Source of the DNA: Nereocystis luetkeana
Lineage: Eukaryota > Sar > Phaeophyceae > Laminariales > Laminariaceae
DNA: 64,000 nucleotides
Direction: 5' to 3'
Assembly (NCBI GenBank): GCA_031213475.1
Contig: JARUPZ010000034.1
Span: 4,978,547-5,042,546 of the forward strand
The position numbers and the translations under genes are program-made. Below are positions 718-64,000 of this stretch, in pieces. Below the pieces are notes generated by a model. The model was not told the DNA's origin. It did no database searches and was given only the letters and a program-made list of their open reading frames with translations. Position 1 is the stretch's first letter, and each line of letters starts with the position of its first letter.

Positions 718-1030
718 TATATATATATATATATATATATATATATACACAAGTTTTCCCTTCGGAGTGGCATGAGCGTAGCGTGTAAGAAGACTCTTGC
801 CGAACTACGTATTTGGTGGGTTGGTTTGGACTATTCCACCAATTGCAGTGGTATGTGCTGCAGTTGGGGCAATAGCTCAAATGTACCTGTTAACAACCAA
901 GTATGTACTATTAATAGTAAAAGGAAAGTAGTAGTGGAACATGCAGATGCGGGTGACGCAAGATATATATATATATATATATATATTATATTATAATACC
1001 TGGTATATATATATATTATATATATATATT
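718..1030. repeat. (TA)n tracts with a TACCTGGTA scar
   Basis: Two (TA)n microsatellites (about 718-748 and 962-1030). The second is split at 997-1005 by TACCTGGTA, the 9-mer discussed in the findings. The sequence between them shows no gene. Confidence 0.7.
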
Positions 1031-1100
1031 TCCCTGACAGCCCTTTTACTTGAGGAAACCTAAAACTACTGTAGTAGCATTGTTTGCGGTGGAACAGAGT

Positions 1101-1209
1101 TATCATCGATAGTAGCGATCAGGGCCAAACATGGTTGGTAAAAATTCTGGAATACGTTGGATTTTGTGGGCATTGTGGGATCCTGGTGACTGACTGTGGT
1201 CCCCCGTGA
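1101..1209. mobile_element. Degenerate relative of MITE family A
   Basis: The core GATCAGGGCCAAACATGG, GGTAAAAATT and a terminal TGTGGTCCCCCGT match family A in order, but the left inverted repeat is not recognisable. Probably an old copy or a sister family. Confidence 0.4.
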
Positions 1210-1634
1210 CAAGTGCCTCCCAATGAAAGTGCAAAGCCCTGAGGAACAAGGGCGCGCGCCTATTCGCAAGACATGTCTTGCACGAGCATCCAGCGGCGAT
1301 CTGCTGCTGTCGGCGAAACAAGTGCCTCCCGGACGCAACCCGACCCTCACCCTGGCCCTGACGCTGACCTTATGCCCGACCCGTGCGGTGCGGGGGCTTA
1401 TGCCCGACCCGTGCGCGGGGGCTGTGTTCCGAAGATGTTCGAAAACAAAAAGTGGAGGGGGTATCTTAGGGTGAAACGGGGCCAAACTGGCTATGGATAG
1501 TCACCGAGACACATGGATGAGGGGGGTCAAGGGGTGGAAGGCATGTCTTGCAAACAGGCGCTGTCTTGTCTTGGGAGAAACGATATGAGAAGTGCAAAAA
1601 CCCGATGTCTTATTACAGAGGGGGAGCACAGTAC

Positions 1635-1714
1635 AAGTAGTAATCAGGACCAAACATGTTCTGTAAAAATTGCGGAATATATAGGTTTTTGTGTGTACGA
1701 TACGTCCTGATTAA
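1635..1714. mobile_element. Degenerate relative of MITE family A
   Basis: TAATCAGGACCAAACATG, GTAAAAATTGCGGAATATAT and AGGTTTTTGTGTGTACGA reproduce the family A interior, with facing TAATCAGGAC and GTCCTGATTA ends but no GGGGG block. It shares the GATCAGG variant with the copy at 1101-1209. Confidence 0.45.
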
Positions 1715-1744
1715 TATGCCCGCGCGCCCCCCCCCCCCCCCCTC

Positions 1745-2083
1745 AAAAGGGGTTCTTGGTAGGATGCAGCTCACCCTTCATGCGACTCGCCAGACGCCTC
1801 ACGGCGCTTCGCGCTTGGTGCAAGCAATGTCTGCCTGGTCGGTGAAAACCCGACATGCTCCGTCCCGGCATTGTAGGGATGCGAGGGTCTATGGTCATAC
1901 GACTACGGCCATGCATGAGATCGAGCACATCTCGCCTATCGAGTACACCACCCCCCCCCCCCCCCCCTTCCGTCCCGGCATTGTAGGGATGCGAGGGTCT
2001 ATGGTCATACGACTGTGGCCATGCATGATATCGAGTACATCTCTCCTATCGAGTACACCCCCCCCCCCCCCCCCCCCCGCCTG
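1745..2083 (+). mobile_element. Two family F copies, head to tail
   Basis: Copy one (about 1755-1966) runs from AGGATGCAGCTCACC through GGCATTGTAGGGATGCGAGG to ATCGAGTACA and a C tract. Copy two (about 1967-2083) begins further in, at TTCCGTCCCGGCATTG, and ends at the same place with another C tract. A shared 3' end with different 5' ends is the pattern seen throughout the family. Confidence 0.75.
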
Positions 2084-2178
2084 TGATAACCTTCATTCAC
2101 TCCACACACAGCCCCGCTGGTTCATCAATCCCATAGCACATGCTGTACGTGCCGAGCGATTCCACAGGCACCCTTCTA

Positions 2179-2285
2179 TTACGGGGGACCGTATTAAATG
2201 GGACCAAATATTGCTAGTAAAAATAGGGAAATATATATGGGGTTTTGTGTGCACCGTAGGTCCTATTCAGTATGTTCCCCCGTAA
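2179..2285. mobile_element. MITE family A copy
   Basis: Inverted repeats TTACGGGGGACC and GTTCCCCCGTAA bound a 107-bp element flanked by TA on both sides (2177-2178, 2286-2287). No coding capacity; presumed mobilised in trans by a TA-specific transposase. Confidence 0.85.
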
Positions 2286-3107
2286 TAGTGGGCTATAGCC
2301 GGCACCATGGGCGAAGAAGCCCGTTTCGATACAGAGCAAGCCCCCAGGGACGCTTGCTCGTACGCGTTACACGCGCGCTCCCGTTCGCAAATGCCTCCGT
2401 ATGTACTGGAAACCCCCTACCTGGTACTTTATTTAGCCCCTGTAAAAGGATGGTATGATAGTGTTACCATCCCCTCTATTAACGCCTTTTTCTAGCCGAA
2501 AACGTACATCCTTGACCCCTCCCCGTGTGCTGCGTTTCTGTCCGGGGGGGCGGCGGGGGGGGGGGTGGGGGGGGGGGGTGAGGGGGGGGGGGGCAGGAGC
2601 CGACCAGACCGGATTGTGCCGATCGCCTGCTCTCCCTGTTTTTGGACAGTGCTGTACGAAGAGCACGGGAATGACCCTCCCCCCGTCCTGTCGATGTATT
2701 ATGTCTGCGCTTACAAATTGGGAAACATTTAGGTTGAGATGTAATGTATAGATTGCGAAGAGTGAAATACTTTTATCTCTTAGGTCTGTCGAGTCTCCGG
2801 CCTTTCATCTCCCCCCCCCCCCCCCTCCCTTTCTTGCCCCCCCCTCCACTCATACCCTCCCCGACCCCCCCGCCGTGTTTCATCTTGCCCCCCCCCCCCC
2901 CCCCCCCCTCCCCCCATCCTTGCTCCGTCTCGAAAGGGATGCTTGGTCAATGGTCAAATGACTAAGGCAATCAACAAATCACTACGCCCCCCCCCCCCCC
3001 CCCGCCTTATACTCGATTATAACGACCGTGCGTGCCCGCGTCATTGTTGTTTTTGTTTTGCGTCTGTTTTCGTTTCGCCATATATTTTTTTTGGCTGATT
3101 TTTCCAG
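2286..3107. other. Non-coding stretch with homopolymer tracts (intron)
   Basis: Contains long G and C tracts (about 2545-2593, 2811-2910, 2990-3003) and a short F-like block at about 2925-3003 that ends in poly(C). It should be intronic because the next exon begins at 3108 in mid-protein. Confidence 0.5.
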
Positions 3108-3227
3108 TGCCGACAATCGGGGGACACGCCGCAGTGCGTGGTGTTAGTGGCGACGGTTCGAGCCCTCAAGATGCACGGGGGAGGACCGCCTGTTAAGGCT
3201 GGAACTCCCCTCGCCAAGGTCTACAAG
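3108..3227 (+). CDS. C1-THF synthase exon (V-A-T-V-R-A-L-K segment)
   Basis: Forty codons, phase 0 at both ends, after the acceptor TTTTTCCAG and before the donor AAG|GTGTGT. It reads [20 protein letters not shown] then [20 protein letters not shown]. Animal C1-THF synthases have K-C-R-Y-S-G followed by the same [17 protein letters not shown] core. Starting at 3108 rather than at the AG at 3133-3134 retains the family's C-R-x-S-G motif. Confidence 0.92.
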
Positions 3228-62404: not shown

Positions 62405-62640
62405 TGCCGTGTGTGTTCTGCATGTTCACCTGTTATTTCCACCCGGCGACATCCCCCGCTCACCCAGCACTGTCCCTGCAGATCCTTCATGCTAGAGATA
62501 TACAACCTCTGTGTCCACAAAACTACGGCACAGAGATACGGCGTTGTACGCAATGCAACAACAGGGAAGAAACTAGGCAACGCCAATGCCACATGTCATC
62601 GTACTCGATACGAAATGCACAGCATACACACGCCAGCAAT
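62405..62640 (+). repeat. Dispersed repeat J, diverged
   Basis: TTTCCACCCGGCGACATCC, GATCCTTCATGCTAGAGATA and CACAAAACTACGGCACAGAG follow the J order. Confidence 0.6.
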
Positions 62641-62649
62641 CCAAATACA

Positions 62650-62790
62650 GCAGTAGTAGTATTGATGGTAGTAGTAGTAGTAGTAGTAGTAGTAGTAGTA
62701 GTAGTAGTAGTAGTAGTAGTAGTAGTAGTAGTAGTAGTAGTAGTAGTAGTAGTAGTAGTAGTAGTAGTAGTAGTAGTAGTAATAGTAGTA
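62650..62790. repeat. (AGT)n microsatellite
   Basis: About 125 bp of AGT triplets. Confidence 0.97.
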
Positions 62791-62817
62791 GTACGGGGGA
62801 CCATAGATGCGTCCTAT
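62791..62817. mobile_element. Family A end fragment
   Basis: GTACGGGGGACCATAGATGC then GTCCTATTA: a left inverted repeat directly joined to right-end-like sequence. Confidence 0.5.
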
Positions 62818-63039
62818 TATATATTAACAGTCGCGCCAAGCGATGTTGACCGTCTTGTATCGGGATGCTGCCTTGCTCAGACCGTCTCATGGGAGGGACC
62901 CCTGCTGCTGCTGCTGCTGCACCATTTTTTGTGTGCTGTGAAAATGTTGATGACTCTAACGCTGACCGCACGATCCCTTTATAACTAACTGTCAGCCGCC
63001 CGCTGCTTGTTGTGCGTGTTCGCTACAATAATTCATCCT
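62818..63039. other. Unassigned sequence
   Basis: A short (CTG)n tract at about 62902-62921. No gene recognised. Confidence 0.4.
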
Positions 63040-63118
63040 CTTGGGACCGCGGTGCCGTCTCGGGGACAACTTACTTGGAATTTGAGCTCTGTTCCCCCAA
63101 ACGGCACTGCAGTACTAC
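63040..63118. mobile_element. Family C piggyBac-type MITE, diverged
   Basis: GACCGCGGTGCCGTCTCGGG facing CCCCCAAACGGCACTGCAG. Ends lost. Confidence 0.6.
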
Positions 63119-63144
63119 TAATAATAATAAAAAGAGAGGTCGAG

Positions 63145-63285
63145 CCGCTACTTCTACCCGTCGGCATCCAGCATTCGGCACACCCGGGGTTCCGCGATTG
63201 TTTTTCGCACCTAGAGAAAGATGCAGCGAGCTCTGCTCTGTGGCCACAAAGCTACGACGCAGGGGCAACAATGCGTCGTAGTTTG
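63145..63285 (+). repeat. Dispersed repeat J, diverged
   Basis: CTTCTACCCGTCGGCATCCA and CTGTGGCCACAAAGCTACG. Confidence 0.55.
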
Positions 63286-63489
63286 CAGCAGTACTGCAGC
63301 AGCAAGCAGTCACTGCAACGAGATTACGGTAGGTGGTCAAAACGGAAGACAGACGGATACATATTCGTACGACGTACATATATTATAGTAGTTGTACAAC
63401 CAGCAGCCGGCAGTAGGCCCAGCCAGTCCAGCTCCGTCTACCACATGTGGTTCACACCCGTGCCCAACAGTGGCCTCACATCCAACCAG

Positions 63490-63570
63490 CCAACCAACAC
63501 CAACTAACCAACTAATCAACCAACCAACCAACCAACCAACCAACCAACCAACCAACCAACCAACCGCCCA
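63490..63570 (+). repeat. (CCAA)n microsatellite
   Basis: AACC tetranucleotides at about 63517-63565 with looser copies around. 63571-64000 shows no gene; one CCWGG scar near 63667. Confidence 0.9.
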
Positions 63571-64000
63571 ATCAACCGATCAACCAATCAACCGACCAGC
63601 CAACGTACAAGCCACACCTTATGCCAGCTGTCCTATATATACCACACCAGCAAAAAAAGCAGCAAGTACCTGGTGTGAGTTGTTTTCTCACGCGCTAGAA
63701 AAATTCCAAGCAGCATTATTCCAAAAAAAAAAAACAGAGGTTGCAGCTTCGAAATGGAGGTGAAATTACAAAATCCCTCGTAAGCGTTGCAGGGCTCTGA
63801 AAATACATACTGCTGTGGTGTAAAAATAGTAGTACTGTTCTTCTACTGGTATGTACCAAGTATGATGTCAGATGTATGTACTTTGTGTACACTGTATGCT
63901 GGGTATTAGGGAAGGATGCTATTCAAGTACCTGAGGATATTGCTACTCACATGTGAACAACAATACTTTCTCATATGTTGTTGTGCACTCCTAAATAGCC

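Follow-up and report, generated by a model that had tools for sequence, protein, structure and literature searches.

TACCWGGTA in the genome of Nereocystis luetkeana: a 7-bp insertion at TA and probable excision scar of a DNA transposon

Introduction

A 64-kb stretch of the genome of the brown alga Nereocystis luetkeana (contig JARUPZ010000034.1, positions C34:4978547-5042546; assembly GCA_031213475.1 of 465,085,209 bp in 1,987 contigs), hereafter the window, is scattered with copies of the nine-base motif TACCWGGTA. The initial annotation read these copies, here called scars, as CCWGG pentamers inserted between duplicated TA dinucleotides, and attributed them to a very active element with CCAGG-like ends or to a micro-insertion process. 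The locus raises the question of whether the 9-mer is indeed an insertion, how far it extends beyond the window and what kind of source could have left it.

Abundance of the motif in the window, the sample and the genome

In the window, 41 copies of TACCNGGTA were counted, 23 with CCTGG and 18 with CCAGG as the core and 0 with either CCCGG or CCGGG, in agreement with the several dozen sites first reported. The described density after 31 kb was also found: 32 of the 41 sites lie there and 9 before 17 kb, with no exact scar start between 16,690 and 31,790, a gap inside which a gene with an HSF-type domain is located. The sites do not extend to 63675 as had been claimed, the last exact start being 61221; near 63667 only the one-base variant TACCTGGTG is present.

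The genome-wide count called for in the initial annotation was made with the motif pattern read backwards as the control. It resulted in 182,395 copies of TACCWGGTA against 1,744 of the reversed pattern, and in 10,882 copies of TACCSGGTA against 1,899. The W centre thus exceeds the S centre 17-fold, and mutated scars may be the source of the TACCSGGTA excess; the window has no TACCSGGTA. A sample of 282,054 bp, composed of the window, six 3-kb loci around scars and 20 loci picked regardless of scars (L009-L028, 200 kb in total), contained 112 exact motifs against 2.1 expected under a first-order model. The 20 scar-independent loci alone gave 60 in 200 kb, and the number of exact sites per single 10-kb locus varied from 0 to 13. 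Outside the ends of miniature inverted-repeat transposable elements (MITEs), CCAGG/CCTGG was the most over-represented short TA-flanked core (112 vs 2.0 expected). The sample was later enlarged to 331 kb and then to 352 kb, with loci L032-L041 added. These counts confirm that the pattern is real and much larger than the window.

Insertion at a single TA

In the paralogue test each scar was replaced by TA and the collapsed form was searched across the sample, an empty paralogue being accepted on a gapless alignment around the scar-free form with at most 4 mismatches in 18 columns. Of the 136 sites tested, 21 had an empty paralogue, 26 a filled one and 11 both. Four of the 21 empty sites were doubtful on re-check, leaving about 17: in the tandems L011 7376 and L029 1029 the gap falls outside the inspected stretch, L030 4186 lies in low-complexity sequence, and the sole collapsed-form match of the scar at 45208 in the window, near 60232, carries TACCGGTA instead of being cleanly empty. 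The closest empty paralogues were 98%, 97% and 95% identical to the scar-bearing copy (L029 6518, L029 9233 and L003 1501, respectively). At one locus a stepwise series was seen, with an empty site near L031 6525 (88%), a single scar at L031 6029 and a double one at L031 5425/5432 (95%). Contigs C809 and C1099, considered as alleles of C2, were 100% identical to it over about 3.3 kb and scar-free, and hence uninformative.

A survey made blind to the motif gave 350 binned indel loci of at least 3 bp between paralogues, 45 of them of the form TA-x-TA. Those with a 5-nt core occupied 12 bins, all CCWGG and 6 of each centre, which probably represent 11 scars, the one at L029 6518 filling two bins. 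Among the clean 7-bp paralogue indels in 352 kb, TACCWGGTA accounted for 15 of 28 (16 of 29 bins before L029 325 and 326, one scar, were merged); the other 13 were mixed, and two of them (L038 and the start of L031) resemble decayed scars by eye.

In multi-copy families, the copies that bear the scar are the minority. The scar TACCTGGTA at 11523..11531, in a MITE-type copy, had 24 collapsed-form and 2 filled matches, and TACCAGGTA at 58750..58758, also in a MITE-type copy, had 21 and 2, which speaks against the 9-mer being ancestral there. Four collapsed-form matches were found for TACCTGGTA at 59602..59610. The scar TACCAGGTA at 45208..45216, again in a MITE-type copy, had two filled matches (11476 and another), and TACCTGGTA at 50113..50121 had a filled match in L025 (76%). 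A 94% relative of TACCAGGTA at 54437..54445, near 44931, has a bare TA with a 3-nt gap adjoining. Two copies of one repeat share the scar TACCTGGTA, at 40426..40434 and 40692..40700. The MITE copies around 11523, 45208 and 58750 are related and of similar context, as is the copy with TACCGGTA at 60292.

The paralogue alignments show that the scar is an insertion at a single TA that leaves TA on both sides. The proposed change from TATA to TACCWGGTA was right as to insertion and is better described as one TA becoming TACCWGGTA, with 7 bp added. The 9-mer does not belong to one longer copied unit, yet it is copied within duplicated repeats (26 of 136 sites with a filled paralogue). The single-site coordinates first given (11523, 58750, 60292 and 59602) were all correct; the site at 60292 (60292..60299) is the 4-nt form TACCGGTA, a possible variant that is not secured.

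Centre base and variant cores

The centre is restricted to A and T, as predicted: among 162 copies of TACCNGGTA in 352 kb it was A in 73, T in 83 and C or G in 6. Such near equality, with other bases rare, is a feature of footprints of the Sleeping Beauty type, and it is expected if repair of the central A:A mismatch, formed by a pair of CCAGG overhangs, can go in either direction.

A 6-nt form, TACCAGGGTA (TACCCTGGTA on the other strand), was found genome-wide 5,725 + 5,697 = 11,422 times against 195 + 214 = 409 in the control. Some of these places are satellite, such as a 528-bp ladder at C1:1,305,185-1,308,353. In the 331-kb sample the CCAGGG form (TACCAGGGTA) occurred 11 times and the CCTGGG form (TACCTGGGTA) 2 times, a bias that random lengthening of G runs would not favour because it would yield both forms equally. 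The CCAGGG/CCCTGG by-product therefore suggests that the element end reads CCAGG and not CCTGG. In the window, TACCAGGGTA lies at 34155..34164 (+) and 40980..40989 (+) and, as TACCCTGGTA on the plus strand, at 37883..37892 (-); exact scars are given without strand.

The 4-nt form TACCGGTA was only mildly enriched (10 vs 4.2 expected in the 282-kb sample). It is a possible variant of the scar and may be a chance occurrence. This holds for the copies at 3607..3614, 39884..39891 and 46581..46588, three of the five in the window.

Target-site preference

The flanks of the 112 scars, some of which are related by duplication and hence not wholly independent, were read separately on the left and right. 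T was favoured at -7 (0.42 and 0.53, respectively, vs background 0.26), A at -6 (0.54 and 0.46 vs 0.26) and A at -3 (0.41 and 0.42 vs 0.27); a purine was favoured at -1 on both flanks, and G was avoided at -7 (0.09 and 0.07 vs 0.24). Beyond this diffuse preference, no common longer flank was found around the scars. Scars had a mean target score of 4.34, compared with 2.81 over all 16,099 TAs and 2.94 over AT-matched ones (maximum 3.39 in 3,000 draws). Because its features were picked on the same 112 sites, this score does not test the preference independently; the match between the two flanks does.

A symmetric preference around the target TA is typical of the Tc1/mariner superfamily. Both this symmetry (112 sites, both flanks) and insertion at TA with TA duplication were observed here, and a preference extending to 7 bp on both flanks points to a dimeric, integrase-like transposase.

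Stacking, decay and age

Stacked scars sharing a TA numbered 10 against 1.45 expected, which suggests that old scars are favoured as targets or that re-insertion is local. Of the three tandems first described in the window, two are exact: TACCTGGTA at 33217..33225 followed by TACCTGGTA at 33224..33232, and TACCAGGTA at 61214..61222 followed by TACCTGGTA, of the opposite centre base, at 61221..61229. The third, placed at 34111, has a decayed first copy, AACCAGG, just before TACCAGGTA at 34117..34125. In addition, TACCAGGTA at 37876..37884 shares a TA with the 6-nt form at 37883, and TACCAGGTA at 56381..56389 with TACCGGTA at 56388..56395.

One-mismatch variants exceeded expectation by 0.59 per exact scar, with 76 transitions against 19 expected and 70 transversions against 39. 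A single-age model of this decay gave about 7% divergence, and a constant-rate model an onset at about 0.15-0.2 substitutions per site. Together with the empty paralogues of 97-98% identity, this indicates that the activity has been both long and recent. As a rough estimate, at an assumed mutation rate of 1e-9 to 1e-8 per generation, the fixation of about 0.002-0.02 scars per generation would account for the stock, and a modest, long-working element would therefore suffice.

Search for a source element and transposase

Starts with TACCWGG were compared with ends in CCWGGTA within each sampled locus (at most 4 mismatches in 14 bases), and no clear element was found. The best three pairs (0-2 mismatches in 14) were scars in similar context, and one pair with 4 mismatches, at window 36117/38482, was not a clear element. 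In a search for TA-flanked inverted pairs, the TACCTGG rows among the matches listed were pairs of scars, one half-site excepted. None of 107 TACCWGG half-sites marked the start of a repeat family, one satellite match in L015 beginning 7 bases in, and three scar-dense 10-kb stretches held no CCWGG-ended inverted-repeat element. Among the matches listed of full-length TA insertions between paralogues in 331 kb (71 of 344 before merging), none was CCWGG-ended; those listed were of MITE type, together with an inverted pair, CCTCTATCATAG. This TA-flanked pair, 2.8 kb apart at window 11235-14050 with a similar end at 13794, is possibly another TA transposon.

If the 282 kb hold no resident element (a 95% limit of about 3 expected), resident copies should number below about 5,000 genome-wide, or about one per 30 scars or fewer; the bound is loose, since the loci are mostly 3-10 kb in length and would truncate a long element.

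Two candidate end motifs were rejected. The excess of CCTGGCAC was explained by scar decay: TACCTGG-V-N2-32-CCAGGTA was found 374 times forward and 424 times reverse (controls 12 and 11), with CAC after TACCTGG in 20 of the 89 matches typed, and TACCTGGCAC with a trailing H occurred 1,713 + 1,701 times (controls 173 and 144), about 100 listed places showing no common extension. We attribute the TACCTGGCAC excess to decay of TACCTGGTAC scars (T to C). The second candidate, TACCTGGCACACAAGTGGAAATG with its variants, found 4 times among the matches listed and considered as a mariner-like end, lies inside a repeat; it is not an end, because three copies show conserved DNA across the TA too.

Profile searches of the assembly gave 0 matches for PF13358 (DDE_3), 0 for PF01359 (Transposase_1), which matched no control genome either, and 28 for PF03184 (DDE_1); transposase genes split by introns could be missed because the search was six-frame. 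Four of the 28 DDE_1 loci were examined as a source and rejected, being open genes without terminal repeats with CCWGG ends; two of the four carry a trace of a Tc5-type helix-turn-helix. The DDE_1 genes of L032-L035 are diverse (pogo/CENP-B-like), no terminal inverted repeats were seen there, and they are possibly domesticated.

Among the titles and abstracts listed from the open-access literature, no report of a TACCWGGTA scar was found, and the papers containing the string TACCTGGTA among the matches listed were unrelated by title.

Origin of the scar

We consider it probable that TACCWGGTA is the excision scar of a TA-targeting, Tc1/mariner-like cut-and-paste DNA transposon. A dimeric DDE-type transposase of Tc1/mariner style would insert the element at TA, duplicating the TA. 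On later excision, the cut in one strand would coincide with the end of the element and that in the other would lie 5 nt further in, leaving 3' overhangs of CCAGG on both flanks. The two overhangs would anneal by C:G pairs around a central A:A mismatch, whose repair would yield CCAGG and CCTGG about equally often. The CCAGGG/CCCTGG form would arise by annealing one base out of register or by a 6-nt cut in a CCAGGG end; with slipped overhangs, TACCAGGGTA should be far above TACCTGGGTA once satellites are removed. The element would often re-insert, old scars included, and few copies would stay in place.

The footprint of Minos is 4 nt. According to PMC3878927, the Sleeping Beauty footprint is C(A/T)GTA and the overhangs of Tc1/mariner elements are 2 or 3 bp. 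The scar resembles those of Sleeping Beauty and Frog Prince in its TA target, TA duplication, odd core derived from the element ends and central A/T; it differs in having a 5-nt core instead of 3 nt, about 180,000 copies and no element in view. The cut-and-paste element Passer, of the pogo group, leaves 0-4 bp footprints that are likened to Tc1/mariner in PMC9976928; both footprints are short, 0-4 bp in Passer and mostly 5 bp here. In rice, PMC4423477 gives 8 perfect excisions of 94 for all DNA transposons, Mariner included, the rest having deletions or filler. The rice footprints, too, were read by comparison of genomes; here, in contrast, the clean scar outnumbers every other 7-bp indel. For the brown alga Ectocarpus, PMC12477816 reports 17 Mariner-Tc1 families with almost 12,000 copies, mostly non-autonomous, and transposase genes commonly with introns; the word "excision" does not occur in that paper. 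What is new relative to these systems is that the core is 5 nt long, uniform and dense, with no element in view.

Several points weigh against excision of such a transposon. No source element was seen in loci of 3-64 kb, up to 331 kb in all and less than 0.1% of the genome, and the TA-specific transposase profiles found nothing or else genes whose ends do not correspond (4 of 28 DDE_1 loci). A 5-nt overhang exceeds the 2-3 nt of the superfamily and the 0-4 bp of Passer. The repair would be unusually uniform, as rice DNA-transposon excisions mostly carry deletions or filler. The 11-to-2 asymmetry of the 6-nt forms comes from the 331-kb sample, and some TACCAGGGTA places are satellite. The odd core and W centre fit a Tc1/mariner footprint, whereas its 5 nt do not fit an overhang of 2-3 nt; because of this, and because element and transposase are not tied to the scars, the source is not assigned to the superfamily. 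The initial claim of a very active element with CCAGG-like ends is therefore partly supported: single-TA insertion, TA duplication, the W centre, the genome scale, stacking and recent activity speak for it, while the transposon was not found, and such an element is the best inference and not a finding. Tentatively, the source may be of a hit-and-run kind, either a transposon with a 5-nt stagger that is nearly always re-excised or a domesticated transposase making 7-bp insertions without a classical element.

The explanation that survives best beside excision, although we regard it as unlikely, is direct micro-insertion, in which a host or domesticated integrase or nuclease adds CCWGG with a TA duplication, for instance by abortive transposition, and no resident element ever exists. 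It would account for the strikingly uniform insert size and for the failure to find a resident element in the sample despite dense scars, and DDE_1 genes without terminal inverted repeats do exist (4 of 28 loci examined). However, we know of no enzyme that makes such insertions, and the even split between A and T at the centre, like the CCAGGG/CCCTGG by-product, agrees with overhangs that annealed after an element had left. Few resident copies are expected anyway of a non-replicative, constantly moving element.

It is less probable still that the scars have no single active source now and stem from several TA-specific families whose ends are of the CCAGG type, or from one very old family that is dead. 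Other TA-flanked cores are enriched, such as CGAG/CTCG (49 vs 7.8), and decayed scars exist (an excess of 0.59 one-mismatch variants per exact scar), but one core dominates and the 97-98% identical empty paralogues (L029 6518 and 9233) show recent events. A selected palindromic site of protein binding or cleavage, or a motif of one repeat family, is very improbable: clean 7-bp insertion at TA in differing contexts, the empty-single-double stacking, decay by point mutation with a transition excess and the lack of a common longer flank contradict it, even if the 9-mer is palindromic save for its centre and is carried inside repeats (26 of 136 sites with a filled paralogue). An assembly or sequencing artefact, a question raised by the match of CCWGG to the Dcm/EcoRII site, found no supporting evidence and can practically be dismissed in view of the TA-specific 7-bp unit, the flank preference, the sharing of scars by duplicated copies and their point mutations.

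If TACCWGGTA is an excision scar, as we favour, it represents a base-resolution, genome-wide tally of past transposition that is independent of surviving copies and, at a readable density of about one per 2.5 kb of genome, an unusually dense record of transposon traffic. Their accumulated mutations would then allow the scars to be dated, their positions would reveal target choice in vivo, and their presence or absence could serve as a marker between strains. Among short indels they would account for much of one class, with 15 of 28 clean 7-bp indels between paralogues being of this kind. The cleavage geometries known for TA-specific transposases would also come to include a 5-nt stagger.

Remaining sites and other features

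The other scars of the form TACCTGGTA in the window lie at 997..1005, 2418..2426, 9395..9403, 14637..14645 and 16619..16627 before the gap, and at 31791..31799, 32274..32282, 33332..33340, 34015..34023, 34505..34513, 39849..39857, 40916..40924, 50278..50286, 50661..50669 and 55859..55867 after it. Those of the form TACCAGGTA are located at 10744..10752, 16461..16469, 16689..16697, 34141..34149, 36117..36125, 39226..39234, 49228..49236, 55733..55741, 56562..56570, 58214..58222 and 58814..58822.

A MITE about 103 bp long, with TACGGGGGACCATAG as its inverted ends, is present in many copies, including window 14054-14156, 33737-33839 and 58606-58711. The enriched TA-flanked cores other than CCWGG, determined in 264-282 kb, were CGAG/CTCG (49 vs 7.8, with 24 and 25 of each) and CAG/CTG (96). 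They are possible footprints of other TA transposons; CGAG was not among the TA-form paralogue indels of the motif-blind survey.

The HSF-type DNA-binding domain gene (PF00447, E 3e-19) occupies window 28913-31426 (-), the domain being followed by long alanine/serine/glutamine runs. A reverse-transcriptase fragment (PF00078) resembling long interspersed nuclear elements was found at window 56549-57649 (+), and of the 8,000 candidates scored in a protein search with it, 1,102 were relatives with an E value of at most 1e-10. In the scar-dense part of C1 there are large inverted duplications (L030 4637-9781 and L029 4560-6116). L036 (C1:88701-92200) contains a directly repeated stretch of about 480 bp, similar to long terminal repeats and with 3 kb between its copies, one of which is also present in L037 and L038.

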